Made by a program: the position numbers and the translations under genes. 29,965 bases of DNA, taken from IMG/VR virus record IMGVR_UViG_3300040801_001809, positions 1-29,965 of that record; one strand, 5' to 3'. Below, piece by piece: positions 6,489 to 20,227 of the stretch. Position 1 is the first letter of the stretch; each line of letters starts with the position of its first letter. The notes beneath the pieces were generated by a model. It saw only the letters and a list, made by a program, of their open reading frames with translations. It made no database searches and was not told where the DNA came from. The stretch comes from a virus.

Positions 6489-7158
6489 TCAATATAACTC
6501 CTCAATATATCCTTTAAAATACAATTTAAGTGGAATTGACTTTCCATTTAAATGATTAACAACCTGACTATTTTGTTCTTGAACAGTTCTAATCTTATCA
6601 CCACGTAGACCGGTTCCAACTTGTTCTTTTCTGATAGCAGATCGAATATCATGTTGTTCAGATTCTTTAGATTTCTTAATCTTTTCTATTAAACGTTGTA
6701 ACGCAATGTCTTTATTTGCGTTTTGACAACGTTCGTCTTCACTTTGAGCAGTAATTCCTGTTTCGTAATGTGTCAACTCAACTGCACTCTCTACTTTATT
6801 TCTATGTTGACCACCTTTCCCAGATGCCTTATACGTTCTCATTCCATATTCCCATGGTTTTAAATCAACTTCAATCTTTTCTTTGTGGTCAAGAACTGCA
6901 CCAGTAACAGATGAAGTATGAACTCTTCCTTTCTTTTCTGTAGGAGGAACTCTTTGCCATCTATGACCCCCAGCTTCACTTAGAAATACGTCAGATTTCT
7001 TTCCATGAACTTCAAATGAAATGAATCCAGGCAACTCTTTTACGAGTTTAACCTCAAAGACACTCCTTGGCAGCAAACTTGCTGTAAATATTGAATAACT
7101 TTTCTACTAAGTCTTTGGCATCTCTGCCACCTTCACCTTGTCTTATTTCTACAATCAT
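6489..7158 (-). CDS. Short class I peptide release factor, made by +1 frameshift
   Basis: Two frames joined by a +1 shift give about 222 residues. Frame one starts at ATG 7158 (GAGGAG 7 bases upstream) and encodes MIVEIRQGEGGRDA up to a CTT codon (residue 34) followed by TGA at 7056-7054. Skipping one base continues at GAG 7055 through GGHRWQRVPPTEKKGRVHTSS to the catalytic GGQ (about 115-117). The joined protein matches release-factor domains 2-4 without a gap, but lacks N-terminal domain 1, as PrfH-type factors do. The recognition tripeptide is PPT (71-73), the PxT form of RF1 (UAA/UAG), not the SPF of RF2. It hydrolyses peptidyl-tRNA on ribosomes; whether it reads stop codons or rescues stalled ribosomes is open. 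It sits between RNR and the adenosyltransferase. Confidence 0.85.
7054..7068 (-). promoter_or_regulatory. Programmed +1 frameshift site, prfB type
   Basis: On the minus strand: AAGGAG (7068-7063), TGT, then CTT TGA G. This reproduces the bacterial prfB arrangement (SD-like AGGGGG, three bases, CUU UGA) including the spacing. It lies exactly where the release-factor frame must change. Confidence 0.88.
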
Positions 7159-7264
7159 TTTCTTTCTCCTCATATGGACAATTTCGACAACCATTATAAC
7201 AACAATGCCCTCTCTTGAGAAGAAATTCTCTTGAGAGGGCACCATTTTCGTCAAATATAGATTC
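7133..7264 (-). CDS. DUF5522-like Cys-rich reading frame, no clear start codon
   Basis: 43 codons directly after the RNR gene that read ESIFDENGALSREF, LLKRGHCCYNGCRNCPYEE and a short tail. The KRG-CC-x-x-GC-x-x-CPY pattern is that of the small DUF5522 family (from memory). No ATG or GTG is in frame; the nearest non-ATG candidates are ATA inside the frame, or CTG and TTG within the RNR gene, none with a good ribosome site. The frame is exactly +1 to RNR, so skipping the first base of the RNR TGA would fuse the two. It overlaps the release-factor start by 26 bases. It may be a real gene with an odd start, a frameshift extension of RNR, or a remnant. Function unknown. Confidence 0.5.
   Translation of the reverse strand, partial: ESIFDENGALSREFLLKRGHCCYNGCRNCPYEEKENDCRNKTR
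7193..7201 (-). promoter_or_regulatory. Extended -10 promoter before the release factor
   Basis: TGT TATAAT on the minus strand (7201-7193), 35 bases before the release-factor ATG. No good -35 is seen, but the TGn extension matches the other non-late promoters here. Confidence 0.45.
7207..7240. repeat. Long hairpin between RNR and release factor
   Basis: GCCCTCTC at 7208-7215 pairs with GAGAGGGC at 7233-7240; inside, GAGAA (7217-7221) and TTCTC (7226-7230) close a 4-base loop. There is no following T-run, so it is not a standard terminator. On the minus strand TTTCTTCTC (7225-7217) is also complementary (one G-U) to the release-factor SD region GAGGAGAAA (7171-7163), so two structures could compete. 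Confidence 0.6.
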
Positions 7265-9973: not shown

Positions 9974-11656
9974 ATGACAATTGAGCAGAAATTGGAAAAT
10001 CTTCTTTTTGAAGATGAAAGAAGAATAGTCACATTTGAAGAAGTGATTGATATTCTTACAGACCATCTCCCAAGATTAAAAATAGAAGAATTGAAAAATG
10101 TTGGAAGAAAGTGGGGAAGTCCAAATCCAATCCCATTTGATTATGGTGAACTTCCAGATCTTATTAATCCAGCAGACAATATGGGTTGGGATGTTATTAT
10201 TGCACCTGACGCAGATAAAAATCATAAGTTCTTACGAATAACTGGTTATGTGCCGGTCAATGATAATGCACACCTAATTCCACCACCAAATGGAAATAAA
10301 CCTGGAAATCATAAACTTATTTTGGGTGAGTTTGGAAAAACTAGCAATGGCTCAATGATCAAATTAAAAAAATGGTTCCAAGATTTAAATCAATTTGATG
10401 ATATCGTATTTCTTAATCAAAATAATTCGAACATGTATCATCATGCGTGGAAACGTAAAAAATCTGTCTTGAAAGAAAGCCATGTTATGTATTATGCAGG
10501 AACAAGTACAAATAATAAAGTAAAAGATAAATTAAGCATTTGGAACAAAGAGCCTGTTATCGTAACCGCAGATATAAACGAAGCAAGAGATATTGCTAAA
10601 GATGTATGTCGTCGCAACGGGGGAAATCCTGTAATTTATAAAGTCCAACCAATGGGTAAAATGCTACCAGTTCACGATAACTCTACTGTCACATTTATTG
10701 TCGATACAGCAAATGTTGTAGGTGAACTAGACGAAAGTTGGGAAAAGGCTACTTTTGGTTCGTATAAGTTAGGTCATGTTAACGATGGTCGTTGGGGTGG
10801 CGTAGCAGTGGGACCAACAGCTAAGAAAATGGTTAATCGCTTAAAAGAATCTCTTGACAAAGGCGGAACTCGTGCTACAAGTCTTTTTTCACATTTACTT
10901 TTAGAGAAGGATGAAAAAATGGACTATAGAGTATTCTGCGATATGGATGGAGTTTTAGTTGACTTTGCTGGAGGGTTCAAAAAGCGTTTTGATCAAACAA
11001 GCCTTGCAGATAAAATTCAACTAAAAGATGAGGCTGTGAATGGTAATATCGAAAAGCAGCTAGAAGCCTATTTCCGTTCTATCGCAAAGAATGAAAAAGA
11101 AGCCAAAGCTGCCAAGCATCGTGCTAAAGCTTACTTCTGGGCTGTAGTTCCTGGACTTGATCTTGGGTTCAAAAAGCGTGCTCAATATACACCAGAAGAC
11201 TGGTCAGAATACGAAAAACGTACCCTTGACTTCTGGACAGGTATGGAATGGCTTAAAGAAGGTGATCGTGAAGTTGGAAAAGAATTATGGAACTATTTAA
11301 CAGATCTTAAGAAGTCTGGAAAAATTTCAGAATTGAATATTCTTAGCTCACCATCGTCTGATACCAAGATGCCAAATGCAAAAACTGGTGAAATGGAAAG
11401 TCGTAATCTTGCCCGTGAAGGAAAAATGATTTGGTTACGTTCCCAACCAGAAATAGTCCGTTCTGTAGATAATATTATCATTAAAGCCAATAAATTTGAA
11501 GAAGCAACTGGACCTGGAGATATTCTGATCGATGATACTGAAACAAAGCTTTATGGTAATGAGAAAAAGAAAGGTTGGGAAGATGCTGGAGGAACTGGTG
11601 TCCTTTATGTTAATTTAAACGATACACTCCAGCAACTTAAAGATATAGGTCTTTAG
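9974..11656 (+). CDS. Late multidomain protein with C-terminal HAD phosphatase
   Basis: 560 residues. Three parts can be seen. Residues 1-165 are unrecognised and begin MTIEQKLENLLFE, ending in an [L/I]xE triplet (L11-F12-E13) like the capsid-targeting peptides of T4 Alt and internal proteins. Residues about 170-305 begin YYAGTS and continue IVTADINEARDIA and GGNPVIYKV, resembling the start of some ADP-ribosyltransferase-like domains, although the usual His is Ala here; a weak assignment. Residues 316-560 form a HAD domain: DMDGVLVD (D323, D325) and DILIDDTETK (D520, D521) with a following Trp and GGTGVLY, as in 5'(3')-deoxyribonucleotidases. Transcribed alone from a late promoter and closed by a terminator. 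A packaged, injected enzyme is a fair inference; deoxynucleotide scavenging is the alternative. Confidence 0.7.
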   Translation: MTIEQKLENLLFEDERRIVTFEEVIDILTDHLPRLKIEELKNVGRKWGSPNPIPFDYGELPDLINPADNMGWDVIIAPDADKNHKFLRITGYVPVNDNAHLIPPPNGNKPGNHKLILGEFGKTSNGSMIKLKKWFQDLNQFDDIVFLNQNNSNMYHHAWKRKKSVLKESHVMYYAGTSTNNKVKDKLSIWNKEPVIVTADINEARDIAKDVCRRNGGNPVIYKVQPMGKMLPVHDNSTVTFIVDTANVVGELDESWEKATFGSYKLGHVNDGRWGGVAVGPTAKKMVNRLKESLDKGGTRATSLFSHLLLEKDEKMDYRVFCDMDGVLVDFAGGFKKRFDQTSLADKIQLKDEAVNGNIEKQLEAYFRSIAKNEKEAKAAKHRAKAYFWAVVPGLDLGFKKRAQYTPEDWSEYEKRTLDFWTGMEWLKEGDREVGKELWNYLTDLKKSGKISELNILSSPSSDTKMPNAKTGEMESRNLAREGKMIWLRSQPEIVRSVDNIIIKANKFEEATGPGDILIDDTETKLYGNEKKKGWEDAGGTGVLYVNLNDTLQQLKDIGL

Positions 11657-11686
11657 GCCGTAAGGATAATAAATAATTTAATTATT

Positions 11687-11724
11687 AAGACCATTTGAGA
11701 AATTTCTTAGATGGTCTTTTTTAT
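11687..11724 (+). terminator. Rho-independent terminator
   Basis: AAGACCAT (11687-11694) pairs with ATGGTCTT (11711-11718), the intervening bases form AGAAA/TTTCT, and a T-run follows. It closes the 9974-11656 transcription unit. Confidence 0.85.
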
Positions 11725-11772
11725 TTAAATATAAGATTAATCTCTATTACAGATCATAAGGTACGAAGTCAT

Positions 11773-11797
11773 AAAAAAGATTCCCTTCTTGGGAAAA
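11773..11797 (-). terminator. Terminator-like hairpin at the RNA 3' end
   Basis: On the minus strand TTCCC (11795-11791), 5-base loop, GGGAA (11785-11781), TC and six T (11778-11773). The stem is short, so strength is uncertain. Confidence 0.5.
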
Positions 11798-12097
11798 TTC
11801 TGAGGATCGGGAAAGGGTTCACATGGACCTCTACATAAACTTCGTGCATACGCAGAGTTTATGACTCTAAAAGGATATGTGACTCAGTAGCAGCTACAAC
11901 CCAAATGCTTATCGTCTGTTGGATGCCTTTTGGTTTCAGACGCTAGCAGAAGCTTTTCCCAGCGTGCAACTCATCACGCCCACCATACTATTCGTCTGCT
12001 AGAGCAAACAGCATGATCTTCTTCTGTGTTTTTTCTGAACGAGATGGGGAATACCCATCCATGGGAACATCAGCTAAAACCCCTGAGTTGTCTATGA
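11775..12097 (-). ncRNA. Candidate structured non-coding RNA, about 320 nt, unknown class
   Basis: The gene-free 11725-12151 stretch is much richer in GC (about 47% over 11881-12060) than its surroundings. Helices include CTAGCAGA/TCTGCTAG (11943-11950 with 11995-12002), CGTCTG/CAGACG (11913-11918 with 11937-11942), GCGTG/CACGC (11962-11966 with 11975-11979), AGAGT/ACTCT (11854-11858 with 11864-11868), GATGGG/CCCATC (12043-12048 with 12054-12059) and GTACGAAGT/ACTTCGTGC (11761-11769 with 11839-11847). The loop CAACTCA (11967-11973) is complementary to TGAGTTG (12084-12090), a possible pseudoknot. A near-consensus promoter (12104-12132) and a terminator-like hairpin (11773-11797) place it on the minus strand, though the helices would also form on plus. 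No tRNA, tmRNA, RNase P or riboswitch signature was found. Confidence 0.55.
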
Positions 12098-12103
12098 CTA
12101 TCA

Positions 12104-12132
12104 ATTATAAACAGAGCAGGGCATTTTATCAA
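12104..12132 (-). promoter_or_regulatory. Near-consensus sigma70 promoter for the RNA candidate
   Basis: Minus strand TTGATA (12132-12127), 17-base spacer, TATAAT (12109-12104): the best sigma70 match in the window, with no coding sequence downstream for over 400 bases. The -35 lies in the loop of the plus-strand terminator. Confidence 0.7.
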
Positions 12133-12151: not shown

Positions 12152-14041
12152 TCAGGCTTGTAAAATAAGTGGTTGGCCTTTAAGTTCTTTCTGTATATAA
12201 TCTGGAGTTGCGAATATTACAATAGACTTTCCATTACACATGGCAGTTGTGGTCCTCCAATGTGTTATACCTTTTTGCTTTGCATAAATATGCCAAGATT
12301 TCAAATGTTTAACAAACTCTGCAAATTTTTTCCTATCGTAGATATTTTTAGAACCATCAGATTTATGATGACAATATGCTTCAATTGCATATGATTTCAA
12401 ATTTCTTATATGGGCTTGTGTACAAATATCAATTCCATAAAAATGGAAACTTGTTAAATTATTTTCACTAAATCTTAAGTCTTTTGCTTTTTCTGTTATA
12501 AGACATAACTCATCCAGCGAATCAACTTCAGCAACTGGCTTGTCAGCATCGATATATTCTTGTACATCTTTAAGCTTCTGTCCATTTGAATCTAATAGAT
12601 AAAATGCACTCTTATGATTATCCAAGAATACCCCAGCAGGACCAAGAACTCCCCATGGAATGCGTCTATTATTTAATTCAGATATATGGTCTTTTATTTT
12701 CTGCAAAAAATCTGGAGTAACCACAATATCATCGTGGCAATATATGATATATTTTCCATTCGCTAAATCAGTGGCGTTATTATATGCTTGAAAAATATTA
12801 TCATACATATTGAAATAATTAGGTATACCTATAAATTCTATTGTATGATCACCTTTTTGATTGTCAAAACTTTGAAGCATTTCTTTGTAATCTTCATAAT
12901 TATATGCCAAAGTTACAATAGTGAAATCAACATTCGCTGGAGTTTTTCTTCTCCATCCATGAACATCACATTTTCTCTTTAGATATGCAGTGTCTTGTCT
13001 CATACTATTCCAACGATTTGGGTCTGGACCTTTTCCAAATCTAGAAGCATTATCTATGTGATAAATTTCAGCTTTACGGTTACAATAATTAAACTTACCT
13101 GTAGTTTGTGGTATTTTAATCATTAAATCGACATCTTGGAATATATCCCCATATTTTTCATCAAATCCACCTACACTTTTAAAATCTTCTGTTCTAACGA
13201 GACAACCAGCAGCAGTATTACCATCAACGAGAGATACTCTAGTTTGTTTTTCTGGAATTTGAGTTTTTCTAAGTCCCAGATTTAAATGTCCTGCTGTTCC
13301 GGGTCTATGTTCACCTGAAGGTTGGAAAATAAACTGCCCATCATGCTGAATTCTATCATCTGGATAATACATTCTTGGTCCAACAGACCCTACATTATTA
13401 ATAATAGCAATCTTCATCATCTCTGTTACATAATCATTGATGGCTTTAGTGTCATTATTTTGGATAAGAAAGTAATCAGTTTTTATGTGCTTTACCACTT
13501 CATTGTAATTTCTACTAAAATGATAGTCTGGTAATTGAATAAACCGATAACCAAATCCTTTATCTTTGCACGATGACTGAACTTTTTCATAATATTTTCT
13601 AACATTTGGATCTGTAGTTCCAGTATCACAAATAGTAATAGTTGTGTTTGGATAGTTAACCCTAGATAAAATAGTTTCGCAGCAGTCTTTTATAAGATTT
13701 AAAGAATCTTTTGTTAAAATTGCAATCGATACACTAGGCAATCTACCTAAATCTTTCATCTTTTTATGGTATGAAAGTTCTTTAGATATTTGTGGTGAAA
13801 AGCTTGAAACTGATCTTACAGGCTGAAGAACAGTTTTTGTTTCTTTTGGTGGTAATGGTGGAGGTTTTGGTCCACTTGTTTTTGGTAAAATTGTTCTTTT
13901 TTGTGCATGAATTAATTCCAAACCTGGAATTGATGCAAGAGATTCTGGACCATGGATAGTTTGACCGGGATTTATTGGCCTTCTCGACCCATTAATCATT
14001 GCACGAATAATTTGGTTCGTTGTGTTTTTATATACAGCCAT
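12152..14041 (-). CDS. Tandem family-2 glycosyltransferase (two GT-A domains)
   Basis: 629 residues from ATG 14041, which overlaps the uvsW stop (TGATG). N-terminal module of about 48 residues (AVYKNTTNQIIRAMINGSRR), a proline-rich linker (PKPPPLPPKE), then two GT2 domains. Domain A (about 100-335) has VSIAILTKDS, LIQNNDTK as the nucleotide-sugar acidic site, and GGFDEKYGDIFQDVDL as in rhamnosyltransferase-like GT2 enzymes. Domain B (about 370-620) has FTIVTLAYNYEDYKEM and YIIYCHDDIVV, where the CHDD matches the acidic motif of a second GT2 subfamily. It may build a two-sugar unit on DNA or a virion protein; the acceptor is unknown. Last gene of the uvsY-uvsW operon. Confidence 0.82.
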   Translation of the reverse strand: MAVYKNTTNQIIRAMINGSRRPINPGQTIHGPESLASIPGLELIHAQKRTILPKTSGPKPPPLPPKETKTVLQPVRSVSSFSPQISKELSYHKKMKDLGRLPSVSIAILTKDSLNLIKDCCETILSRVNYPNTTITICDTGTTDPNVRKYYEKVQSSCKDKGFGYRFIQLPDYHFSRNYNEVVKHIKTDYFLIQNNDTKAINDYVTEMMKIAIINNVGSVGPRMYYPDDRIQHDGQFIFQPSGEHRPGTAGHLNLGLRKTQIPEKQTRVSLVDGNTAAGCLVRTEDFKSVGGFDEKYGDIFQDVDLMIKIPQTTGKFNYCNRKAEIYHIDNASRFGKGPDPNRWNSMRQDTAYLKRKCDVHGWRRKTPANVDFTIVTLAYNYEDYKEMLQSFDNQKGDHTIEFIGIPNYFNMYDNIFQAYNNATDLANGKYIIYCHDDIVVTPDFLQKIKDHISELNNRRIPWGVLGPAGVFLDNHKSAFYLLDSNGQKLKDVQEYIDADKPVAEVDSLDELCLITEKAKDLRFSENNLTSFHFYGIDICTQAHIRNLKSYAIEAYCHHKSDGSKNIYDRKKFAEFVKHLKSWHIYAKQKGITHWRTTTAMCNGKSIVIFATPDYIQKELKGQPLILQA

Positions 14042-15510
14042 CAATCTTTCTCCAGATAAATCTCATCGACTGCAATATCAAATTGAGATCTTGTATAGAT
14101 ATCTATCCTTTTTTGCAGATGTTTGTCTGCATATGTCAAGTCATCACCGATATCATACAATGTTAATCTATTTTTTTCTTTATGCAAACGTAATCCACGA
14201 CCTATAGACTGGAGAGTTCTAATTTTAGACTTTCCTGCTGATCCAAAAATGACAGCATGGAGTCTTTTAATAGAAATACCAGTTGAGAATACTCCATATG
14301 TAGCAACAATAACACATTTTTTGTTCTTGTTTACAAATTGACGTATTTCTTCGCGTTTATCTGGATGGGTTTCACCAGTAACTAAGAAAATATGTCTATC
14401 ATCACCCATCGTTTCCATCATTTCGACTAAATTCTCAGCATGAGCGATATGATCAACCAAAACTAAGCAGTTATGGTCCACTTCATGGTGTTTATTAACA
14501 ATAAATCTCAAAACTTTGTTACGAGGCTCATATTCTTCCAAAAATTTACGTTCTTCATCGTAAGGAAGCCCTTTAGCAAGCTTTTTAGTCTCTTGTGAGT
14601 GGAAAATATAAGCAATTTTGATCAAAATGTCTGATGCATGTCCAGCATCAATCAAATCTTTAGCTGTTACTCTATGAACGACTGGTCCGAGAGCACCTTC
14701 AATACGCATTTTATCAACTTTTGGATCTGGGAGCGTACCAGTACAACCAATTCGTGTAGTTGCATTGATCGCATTCTCTGCAACACTTCGGACAGTGTCA
14801 CCTCTTAAGTTGTGGACTTCATCGCAAATAATCATATCGAATTCTTTGACGAAATCTCGCTGTTTGCACATTGATTGCCAAGTTGAAATGATAATTTGTT
14901 CTTCTGTGTCTTTCTGAGCACCATAAAAATTACCAATCCATTCTGGAGGAACTCCATATTCGATAAAATCGTTGGTTAACTGTTTAACAAGTCCAGTACT
15001 TGGGACAAGAACCAAAACTTTCTTGTTTTGCTCTTTCAATAGTTTGTACATAATGATTAGAGACATGGTAAGAGACTTACCAGCAGATGTTGCATGTTCA
15101 ATAATGCATCGATTATATTTTAAAGCACGCAATGCACCTTCAACTTGGTGTTGATATGGAACCCATTGTTCCCCATCTTCATTTTTACCCATCCAAGTCT
15201 CAGTAACTTCTGCAAAATCATCAGCTTCAAAACGTTCAGTTAATTCTGGATCAACTATTATTTCTAATCCATCTTGTTTAACGTACTTGTAGACATATTT
15301 CATTAAACCAATAGGGAATATGCCATTCTTTTGCATAAAATAAATCTTACCGTCCCACATACCCATCTTATATTTAGGCATGAAACGGTAATTTTCTACA
15401 TACACCGAAAGGTAATTGTAGAGTTCACCAAAAATGCTTGGATGATTGGTTGTTACTCTAGCTGATATATTATTATGCTTCTCTATTTTCAGCCAGCGTT
15501 TATTTGACAT
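14041..15510 (-). CDS. uvsW: UvsW-like recombination helicase
   Basis: 489 residues. SF2 helicase; T4 UvsW unwinds R-loops, regresses stalled forks and migrates branches, shifting replication from origins to recombination. Motifs: Q-motif-like PYQHQ (119-123), Walker A ATSAGKS (140-146), DEVH box (230-233), GCTGT (motif III), and QSIGRGLRLHK (motif VI). The N-terminal 100 residues (MPKYKMGMWDG) match the T4 UvsW DNA-binding domain. ATG lies one base after the uvsY stop, as expected for the conserved uvsY-uvsW pair. In T4 uvsW is late; here only the sigma70-like promoter upstream of uvsY is visible. Confidence 0.93.
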   Translation of the reverse strand: MSNKRWLKIEKHNNISARVTTNHPSIFGELYNYLSVYVENYRFMPKYKMGMWDGKIYFMQKNGIFPIGLMKYVYKYVKQDGLEIIVDPELTERFEADDFAEVTETWMGKNEDGEQWVPYQHQVEGALRALKYNRCIIEHATSAGKSLTMSLIIMYKLLKEQNKKVLVLVPSTGLVKQLTNDFIEYGVPPEWIGNFYGAQKDTEEQIIISTWQSMCKQRDFVKEFDMIICDEVHNLRGDTVRSVAENAINATTRIGCTGTLPDPKVDKMRIEGALGPVVHRVTAKDLIDAGHASDILIKIAYIFHSQETKKLAKGLPYDEERKFLEEYEPRNKVLRFIVNKHHEVDHNCLVLVDHIAHAENLVEMMETMGDDRHIFLVTGETHPDKREEIRQFVNKNKKCVIVATYGVFSTGISIKRLHAVIFGSAGKSKIRTLQSIGRGLRLHKEKNRLTLYDIGDDLTYADKHLQKRIDIYTRSQFDIAVDEIYLEKD

Positions 15511-15511
15511 A

Positions 15512-16015
15512 CTACATCATTCCTAATTCTATTTTAACACTTTCTATCACATTTTTAATCGCAAACCCACGATCACGAATCATAATAGTTACGTTTTCAA
15601 GATACCCCACTAATGCTTCTTGAACTTTCACGAGCTTATTTATGGCAATATAGCAAGGATGTGAATAAACATATTTACTTAAAGCAGCTTCAGACTTAAG
15701 TTTAGAAGAGATGTCGGAATGATTTCTATAATAATCAAATAATTCACCTTCTATTTTCTCTCTATTAATCTTTAAATCATTAACTGCGATCCTCTCTTCT
15801 GCGAGACGACTTGTATATGTGTGAAATAGGTGAATGTTTCTATTACTTTCAGCAACCATATTCGTTTTGTCGATTGGGGTAAGAGCTTCTTCAATTTCAT
15901 TTTGCAGTTTCTCAAATTTTTCCATAGCCTTAGAAACAATTTCTTTCATTTTGTCAGTATATTTGTCAACTAACTCTTGTTTTTGGTACTTTAATAGAGT
16001 TTTATCATTAAACAT
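15512..16015 (-). CDS. uvsY: UvsY-like recombination mediator
   Basis: 167 residues, largely helical. The C-terminus (LENVTIMIRDRGFAIKNVIE) matches the T4 UvsY C-terminus (IKSRGFAIKHIQ), and the position directly before uvsW supports it. UvsY loads the UvsX recombinase on gp32-coated single strands. It is longer than T4 UvsY (137) through an N-terminal coiled coil (KYTDKMKEIVSKAMEKFEK). GGAG precedes the ATG. UvsX itself is not in this window. Confidence 0.8.
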   Translation of the reverse strand: MFNDKTLLKYQKQELVDKYTDKMKEIVSKAMEKFEKLQNEIEEALTPIDKTNMVAESNRNIHLFHTYTSRLAEERIAVNDLKINREKIEGELFDYYRNHSDISSKLKSEAALSKYVYSHPCYIAINKLVKVQEALVGYLENVTIMIRDRGFAIKNVIESVKIELGMM

Positions 16016-18836: not shown

Positions 18837-20227
18837 TGAATAAGAAAGCTTCTTACCGTGGTCAACTATTCGAAGTTATAGATCAAGATGAAATATATGT
18901 AACCTTAGAAGGTTGGGGGTACAAGAAACGAGTCTTGAAAGATGATATTCTATTTGAAGAAGAACCAGAAGATGATCTTCCAGAAGAATATCCAGATCGT
19001 GAAATAGTCACAGATGCTCCTGAAGATACACTTCCAAATGAAATTCCAGATAGAAGTCTGAAACTGGATGAGATGGATGTTTTATCTCAAGTTGATCCTG
19101 CAACTGCTCAGAAAATTGCACAAAAACAATCGCAAAAATCTCAATTAAGAGACAAAGAAGCAAAGATTGACCAAGAAATCGCTCAAATGACTAAGATTGG
19201 AATGAAGAAAAAAGAAGCTGAACAGAAGAAACTGGATAAACAAAATAAAGGTCCTGGCATGATAAGTAAAGCAGGGTCAGCTATTAAATCAGGAATTAAA
19301 TCTGTTGGGCAAGCCATAGGTCTTGCTGAAGAACAAGGAGATGAAGACATGGAAAAGCGTACCACTATGGATGGAGACGAATGGGACAAGTATAAAGAAC
19401 AAGGAGTCGATGTTGACCCAGAATCCCATGCAGAAACTCAAGAAACCAATGATGATCGCATGAAGCTTGCTTTGCAAGGGCTTCGACGTACATTTAGACA
19501 GAAGCTCAATGAACTTGATGATCTTCTTGAGATGGCTGAAGAAGACGAAGAGATTCTAGCTGAAGATGGTGCTGTAGAAGAAGATGAAGTTCCTGAGAAC
19601 GCAGAAATCCATGTTGATCCTGATCGACCATCTGATGATGTAAATTATCGCAGCACTGATAACTATTATGATAACCTTGATGCTGAAGAAGATACTGACT
19701 TCGAACAAGTAAATGAAGAAGATCATGATGAAGAAGAGGATGACGCTGAACAGCTAGATGAAGAAGGTGCAGGAACTGCTTCTGTTGCTGGTCCGGGTGT
19801 TGCAGATGCTACTGTCAATCAAGCAATTAATGGTCAGCAAGGTGTTGCAGTTTATCCAGGAAGAATGGGTATTGGAATGCAAAGAAGAAAGATTGATGAA
19901 ACATTCTTCAAGTTGTCTGATGATGAAGTTGTATTAAAAGAAGCCCATGTTCCAACAATCAATCGTCACAGAGTAGCAGATAAAGTTGAAGAGCAATTAG
20001 ACCCAATGACTGAATCTGATTGTACTGGAGTCCAACGCCGTAAGGCAAGAATGGAATCTATTGGTAGATATGCAACTCTTCGTGAGTGTGCAATGTTTAT
20101 TGCAGAAAATAGATATGCATGTGGCGAAGGATACGTTCCAAGAGAGAAGAAGCTTGAAGCTGCAACTGTTTTGGAAATGATGAAAAAGAAAAACTCTAAA
20201 TTAATGCGTGAAATTAGAAAAGCTTGA
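18836..20227 (+). CDS. Acidic late protein carrying a gp23 N-arm-like segment
   Basis: 463 residues. N-terminal 45 residues form a small beta-like domain (YRGQLFEVIDQDEIYVTLEG). Then comes a low-complexity, strongly acidic region with a Lys/Gln coiled coil (about 95-140). At 307-346 is a segment that begins with an LDE cleavage-like triplet (307-309) and continues GTASVAGPGVADATVNQAI and NGQQGVAVY, almost the same as the start of mature gp23 in this window. The last 110 residues are basic and helical with several Cys. Family not recognised. Late position, acidity and the gp23-like piece suggest a head or core protein processed by gp21. TAATG overlap with RuvC; the rnh promoter overlaps its stop. 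Confidence 0.65.
   Translation: MNKKASYRGQLFEVIDQDEIYVTLEGWGYKKRVLKDDILFEEEPEDDLPEEYPDREIVTDAPEDTLPNEIPDRSLKLDEMDVLSQVDPATAQKIAQKQSQKSQLRDKEAKIDQEIAQMTKIGMKKKEAEQKKLDKQNKGPGMISKAGSAIKSGIKSVGQAIGLAEEQGDEDMEKRTTMDGDEWDKYKEQGVDVDPESHAETQETNDDRMKLALQGLRRTFRQKLNELDDLLEMAEEDEEILAEDGAVEEDEVPENAEIHVDPDRPSDDVNYRSTDNYYDNLDAEEDTDFEQVNEEDHDEEEDDAEQLDEEGAGTASVAGPGVADATVNQAINGQQGVAVYPGRMGIGMQRRKIDETFFKLSDDEVVLKEAHVPTINRHRVADKVEEQLDPMTESDCTGVQRRKARMESIGRYATLRECAMFIAENRYACGEGYVPREKKLEAATVLEMMKKKNSKLMREIRKA

Follow-up and report, generated by a model that had tools for sequence, protein, structure and literature searches.

What does a phage make from a near-consensus promoter that is followed by no protein gene? 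The question is raised by a virus record of 29,965 bases (IMG/VR IMGVR_UViG_3300040801_001809), the whole of which is the window analysed here and which encodes T4-like capsid, UvsW and UvsY proteins. Between the end of one gene at 11656 (plus strand) and the end of another at 12152 (minus strand) lie 495 nt without a gene, in agreement with an earlier reading made from the letters alone (the sequence-only reading), which had noted a gene-free stretch of over 400 bases with a GC content above background; the predicted RNA part of this gap has a GC content of 0.45, compared to 0.36 for the whole window. Upstream of this RNA, on the same strand (minus), lie a uvsY homologue (15512–16015, identified by a protein family match), a uvsW homologue (14041–15510; UvsW_N and ResIII domains) expected to encode an R-loop/branched-DNA helicase, and a glycosyltransferase (GT) gene (12152–14044; Pfam Glycos_transf_2). 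The far side of the gap is occupied by a convergent gene (9974–11656, plus strand) without a Pfam family.

The promoter (12104–12132, minus strand) is predicted to be of the sigma70 type, with −35 TTGATA at 12132–12127, a 17-nt spacer and −10 TATAAT at 12109–12104, and matches the consensus at 11 of 12 positions. The sequence-only reading had given TTGATA-N17-TATAAT without a strand and had ranked it as the best sigma70 promoter of the stretch; the motif and its 11/12 match hold, but the rank is shared with TTGAAA-N16-TATAAT at 1179 (minus strand) and TTGATA-N16-TATAAT at 20224 (plus strand), which match equally well. Judged by coordinates, these two promoters lie upstream of protein genes. 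The promoter after the GT gene implies an RNA start near 12097 on the minus strand, and the predicted structured non-coding RNA of about 320 nt would accordingly span 11774–12097 (minus strand), its ends placed by the promoter and by a U-run.

Beginning at its 5′ end, this RNA would comprise the following parts, all on the minus strand. The 5′-end strand ACAACUC (12085–12091) is assigned to a pseudoknot with the loop of hairpin PB by complementarity and by comparison with relatives; the 7-base complementarity that had been proposed from the sequence is present as 7 Watson–Crick pairs between CAACTCA (12090–12084) and TGAGTTG (11973–11967). Helix P2 (12027–12069), formed by UGUU (12069–12066) and AACA (12030–12027) and preceded by an A-tract, has equivalents by inspection in the relatives L002 (GUGUU/AACAC) and L007 (CGGUU/AACCG). 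Hairpin PA (11982–12017) joins AUCAUGCUGUUUG to CGAAUAGUAUGGU by 13 pairs, and its core helix is kept in both of these relatives. Folding and complementarity define hairpin PB (11962–11979; GCGUG/CACGC), whose loop AUGAGUUG would pair with the 5′ end, and folding and covariance models define hairpin PC (11913–11942; CGUCUG/CAGACG), with the loop motif ACCAAAAGGCAUC (CAWAAGRYA in relatives). Domain D (11815–11902) has an outer helix GGGUU/AACCC, an inner helix CACAU/AUGUG and a variable hairpin CAUAAACU/AGUUUAUG; the inner hairpin was assigned by inspection, and an alternative 9-pair stem is also possible for it in the window. The U-run hairpin that had been described at the 3′ end is present (11771–11795; TTCCC-AAGAA-GGGAA at 11795–11771, then TCTTTTTT) and resembles a terminator, but its stability is low (z = −0.5) and the nearest relative does not keep the 5′ arm.

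Comparison of the folds to those of shuffled sequences shows that PA is exceptional (z = −3.92) and that PB and PC are moderate (z about −1.9), whereas the stability of the whole RNA strand is unremarkable (z = −0.95) and lower, relative to shuffles, than that of the opposite strand (z = −2.45). Because the RNA strand scores so low and the opposite strand higher, single-sequence folding is insufficient to identify a structured RNA, and the case for the predicted structure rests instead on comparison among relatives.

Relatives with the uvsY-uvsW-GT block were gathered by searches with the GT and UvsW proteins; their GT is between about 34–35% and 66% identical to that of the window. At the same syntenic place in L002, the nearest relative, the gap aligns to that of the window over 332 nt with 69.6% nucleotide identity. 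A covariance model built from these two sequences only (R1) recovered the syntenic gap of L007 in a search of 160 kb from 13 sources (E = 5.3 × 10−12). When a model of all three sequences (R2) was applied to 10 unseen loci (107 kb), the top two matches were in L011 (E = 0.016) and L019 (E = 0.05), both exactly within the syntenic gap, and the next match scored 8.2 bits. Applied to a further 33 UvsW loci (339 kb; L041 and L042 among them), R2 gave a single match (E = 8.9), and in whole contigs it found only chance-level places besides L002, L007 and L011. The model R3 gave one match among 42 other loci (L019, E = 0.22) and did not detect L003, L004, L010, L012, L018, L041 or L042; its match of 16.4 bits in the L007 contig was rejected as noise, as it lies inside a protein gene. 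By these models, membership in the predicted RNA family is firm for the window, L002 and L007 and suggestive for L011 and L019; the 7 others among the 12 syntenic gaps compared were not detected. The 12 comprise the window and the relatives named above; L021 was left out because it duplicates L019 over the stretch compared, no gap follows the GT gene in L025 and L026, and L027 has a partial GT. In L007, where an extra 175-aa gene lies between the GT gene and the RNA, the gap was counted from the stop codon of that gene.

Sequence searches reached little of this family. When the RNA gap was compared to 50,697 phage records at the nucleotide level, no match was significant (best E = 0.1). Two exact-pattern scans of viral contigs returned the L002 contig as the sole match, and a looser PC-hairpin pattern returned 27 stretches, among which R3 confirmed the RNA only in the L002 and L007 contigs; the remaining stretches look like chance matches. 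The GT alignment matched 298 stretches of genome contigs, none of them a relative; phage records gave only partial matches to the GT protein and no match to the protein of the convergent gene.

Further features of the window and the related loci were noted. The gaps of L004 and L010 are alike (67% over 427 nt, with re-paired hairpins in common), and their structured RNA looks different, with a conserved loop GAATTTAT and, near the 5′ end, a U-rich loop and an A-rich tail that possibly form a triple-helix pseudoknot. L041 and L042 have the promoter in common and, by inspection, a re-paired hairpin. A ribonucleotide-reductase gene in L004 (9138–12201) is, also by inspection, seemingly broken by an intein-like segment and a GIY-YIG-like open reading frame. 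In the window (6489–7254, minus strand) and in L002 (2544–3210, minus strand), a release-factor gene with RF-1/PCRF domains lies in two frames that meet at AAGGAGTGTCTTTGA, and the downstream frame carries on the homologous protein. At the split site AGGAG, which is Shine–Dalgarno-like, is followed by CTT TGA; we take this arrangement to resemble the programmed +1 frameshift site of bacterial RF2, but it lies in a shorter protein and within the PCRF domain.

The gap could instead harbour a known RNA or a small gene. At gathering scores, Rfam 15 gave no match in the window, in ten related loci or in seven 20-kb stretches of the L007 contig, and at E values up to 10 the window and related loci gave only sub-threshold chance matches, nothing meaningful among them; ARAGORN found no tRNA or tmRNA gene in the window and ten related loci, and the tRNAs of the L007 contig begin more than 60 kb from the RNA. 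The candidates 6S RNA, RNase P RNA, group I introns and the RNAs of RNA-guided nucleases, being without any Rfam signal, were dropped, and ROOL, GOLLD and OLE had no covariance-model match in a search with the whole Rfam library. PMC12286853 describes ROOL and GOLLD as large folded RNAs that phages carry and whose function is unknown, and the predicted gap RNA is like them and OLE in being a large folded RNA. It differs in having no Rfam match, in being at most about half as large as ROOL, and in adjoining uvsW in a locus without a tRNA. A search of one open-access literature library found no description of the RNA among the entries listed, which does not prove absence elsewhere. No long open reading frame is common to the window and L002, whose only peptide matches are short, local and frame-shifting, and a protein-coding gene in the gap was rejected for want of a conserved frame. 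The predicted RNA of the gap is not a catalogued RNA.

In an alignment of four sequences (A14), 97% of 70 cells were paired and 3 of 21 pairs were compensated (both sides changed), whereas controls with slid partners had no compensated pairs and 13–44% paired cells; the observed covariation score was reached by 13 of 500 shuffles. A14 was used for the counts because some helices are misplaced when three or five sequences are aligned with MAFFT; as a model-fitted alignment of four rows, it biases such counts towards structure. We regard the covariation as modest but real, and in the variable hairpins, too, pairing is retained despite unrelated sequences among relatives. Pairing between the 5′ end and the PB loop recurs at coherent positions and with different sequences in the window, L002, L007 and L019, and was not found in L011. 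Mismatched pairings of the 30-nt and 85-nt stretches also give helices of 6–7 bp, whereas the coherent position is rarely reached by shuffles (P = 0.012 and P = 0.026); it is this position alone, and not helix length, that argues for the pseudoknot. Of the three outcomes that the sequence-only reading had named as counting against an RNA (no covariation, no transcript, a conserved hidden coding frame), the comparison bears on the first and the third and found neither: compensatory changes are present, and no hidden coding frame is conserved between the window and L002.

On the RNA strand and within 90 nt of the GT stop codon, the promoter motif TTGNNN-N15..18-TATAAT occurs in 10 of the 12 syntenic gaps, an arrangement found in 0.3–1.9% of shuffled stretches for each gap; the two exceptions are L007 (TATAAT with a poor −35) and L019 (TATGAT). 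In L002, TTGAAA-N16-TATAAT stands at the matching place, is of the same class as the promoter in the window, and lies approximately 8–12 nt upstream of the conserved RNA 5′ end. The L007 contig (332 kb) contains 65 TTGNNN-TATAAT promoters; their spacer is usually 16 nt, and they are concentrated in one arm, on the plus strand, so that this class resembles the ordinary and, as we infer, early promoter of the phage.

These results bear on the possibility that the gap is a conserved spacer without RNA function, in which an old intergenic stretch folds by chance next to an unused promoter. Such a reading would account for the low z-score of the whole RNA, for the seven gaps that the models did not detect, and for the noise that R3 produced within a coding gene. 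It is, however, very improbable in view of the exact recovery of an unseen relative by R1, of compensated pairs set against none in the slid controls, and of the promoters in 10 of 12 gaps. Comparison of the loci shows a near-consensus, predicted sigma70-type promoter at a syntenic place directly after the uvsY-uvsW-GT block, and, in three phages or more, a homologous predicted RNA of about 0.3 kb with a pseudoknot between 5′ end and loop. The original proposal, a structured RNA of no known class behind a near-consensus promoter, is supported by the L002 homologue (70%) and by the R1 match in L007, and we consider it very probable that the gap holds a real, structured transcription unit. Beyond the original proposal, the analysis adds the strand, the synteny of the promoter, an AT-rich tract past the RNA, and closeness to the GC-skew minimum.

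The AT-rich tract lies just beyond the RNA (11661–11760), where the GC content of 0.19 is among the lowest 0.1% of 100-nt windows in the 30-kb window; the stretch directly beyond the RNA has a GC content of 0.19–0.21. In most members, the lowest-GC 100 nt of nearly the whole locus falls in the gap, at or beyond the RNA. A tract downstream of the promoter is seen in the window, L002, L003 and L007, and in L003, where it immediately follows the position of the RNA, no other place in the 137-kb contig is as rich in AT; in the L012 contig it is not distinctive, as 41 places are as low in GC. Some gaps also contain tandem repeats: a 19-bp unit (8.3 copies) and a 28-bp unit (2.8 copies) in L003 (L133 8618–8857), a 42-bp unit in L041, and a 48-bp unit (4.2 copies, 99% identity) at positions 201–402 of the L042 gap, between promoter-proximal hairpins and a strong terminator-like hairpin. 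In three large contigs, the cumulative GC-skew minimum lies at 107, 159 and 104 kb and the RNA at 112.2, 162.7 and 108.4 kb (distances of 5.2, 3.7 and 4.4 kb, respectively). The skew minimum is not independent evidence, because gene orientation flips at the same divergence point.

Our leading, though tentative, explanation is that the gap contains an R-loop origin, primed by transcription, for which the RNA serves as a structured preprimer. Host RNA polymerase would transcribe the RNA early, and the RNA would fold during its synthesis. Either the 3′ portion of the RNA or a read-through transcript would stay hybridized to the AT-rich tract that follows, and the resulting R-loop would prime leading-strand synthesis and later be removed by UvsW, which is encoded next door. 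Such an origin would be similar to oriF of T4 but with a folded preprimer, as in the principle of ColE1 RNA II. The RNA II preprimer is a folded, sigma70-transcribed RNA of a few hundred nucleotides upstream of the replication start; the predicted gap RNA is like it in its sigma70-type promoter, fold and size, and unlike it in having no sequence relation to it by Rfam. That a folded, pseudoknotted preprimer at a uvsW-linked origin of a T4-like lineage is the phage counterpart of the RNA II principle seems to us possible but rather unlikely.

For T4, a review (PMC3016281) places oriE, oriF and oriG near switches of transcription strand and skew. It reports that oriF depends on a promoter together with an A+T-rich element, that the promoter used at oriE is an early one, and that R-loops at origins are unwound by UvsW. 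The gap resembles oriF, or ori(uvsY), as described there in its uvsY/uvsW linkage, sigma70-like −10, AT-rich tract downstream in the window, L002, L003 and L007, proximity to a transcription and skew switch, and UvsW as the potential R-loop remover. According to the same review, oriF has a MotA middle promoter and requires neither a structured RNA nor any particular RNA sequence. The gap differs in its near-consensus −35 and in its predicted folded RNA with conserved helices. The sigma70-like promoter of an R-loop origin is represented by the predicted promoter. Against an origin, the skew minimum may merely reflect coding strands, the AT-rich tract is ordinary in the L012 contig and intergenic DNA is AT-rich anyway, and in the window the weak terminator-like hairpin separates the RNA from the tract. 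Strong RNA folding, moreover, tends to disfavour R-loops.

The conserved fold is explained equally well by a trans-acting phage RNA, made early, stable and folded, that acts during takeover by binding or sequestering a ribosome or a protein of host or phage, its place beside uvsW being an inherited linkage. Helix-level conservation with a compact pseudoknotted core would suit this function, as would a dedicated early-type promoter (TTGANN-N16-TATAAT promoters cluster in the 120–200 kb arm of the L007 contig), and ROOL and GOLLD, as described in PMC12286853, are a precedent for large folded RNAs of phages. The fixed place is not accounted for, however: position is kept in very diverged phages (GT identity of 35–37%), whereas in 7 of the 12 gaps the sequence has diverged too far for the models to recognize it, and because position is kept while sequence drifts, a cis element suits better. 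We consider a trans-acting RNA nearly as likely as the R-loop origin.

Another cis function, as a regulatory or 3′-end element between convergent units (for termination, or for control of the facing gene by an antisense RNA), would agree with the RNA being aimed at the 3′ end of the convergent gene in the window and L002 and with terminator-like hairpins on both strands of the gap. We judge it improbable, given that the RNA has its own predicted promoter and conserved internal helices far from the gene ends, and that the facing gene varies, being by inspection gp46/47-like in L011 and L012 and another GT-like gene in L041 and L042.

If the preprimer reading is true, the phage would encode an R-loop helicase beside that helicase's own substrate, and the RNA would evolve fast in sequence but keep its promoter and position. 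A function is known for few phage RNAs, and to our knowledge the origins of large T4-like phages other than T4 are unmapped. Covariance models that start from gene order can uncover RNA families beyond the reach of sequence searches, and a promoter-driven, folded RNA fixed beside an R-loop helicase is a concrete, deletable candidate for an origin primer or an early RNA effector. Diverse relatives, too, have a promoter and gene-free DNA at this position, a hint that the RNA may serve to initiate replication or to take over the host.
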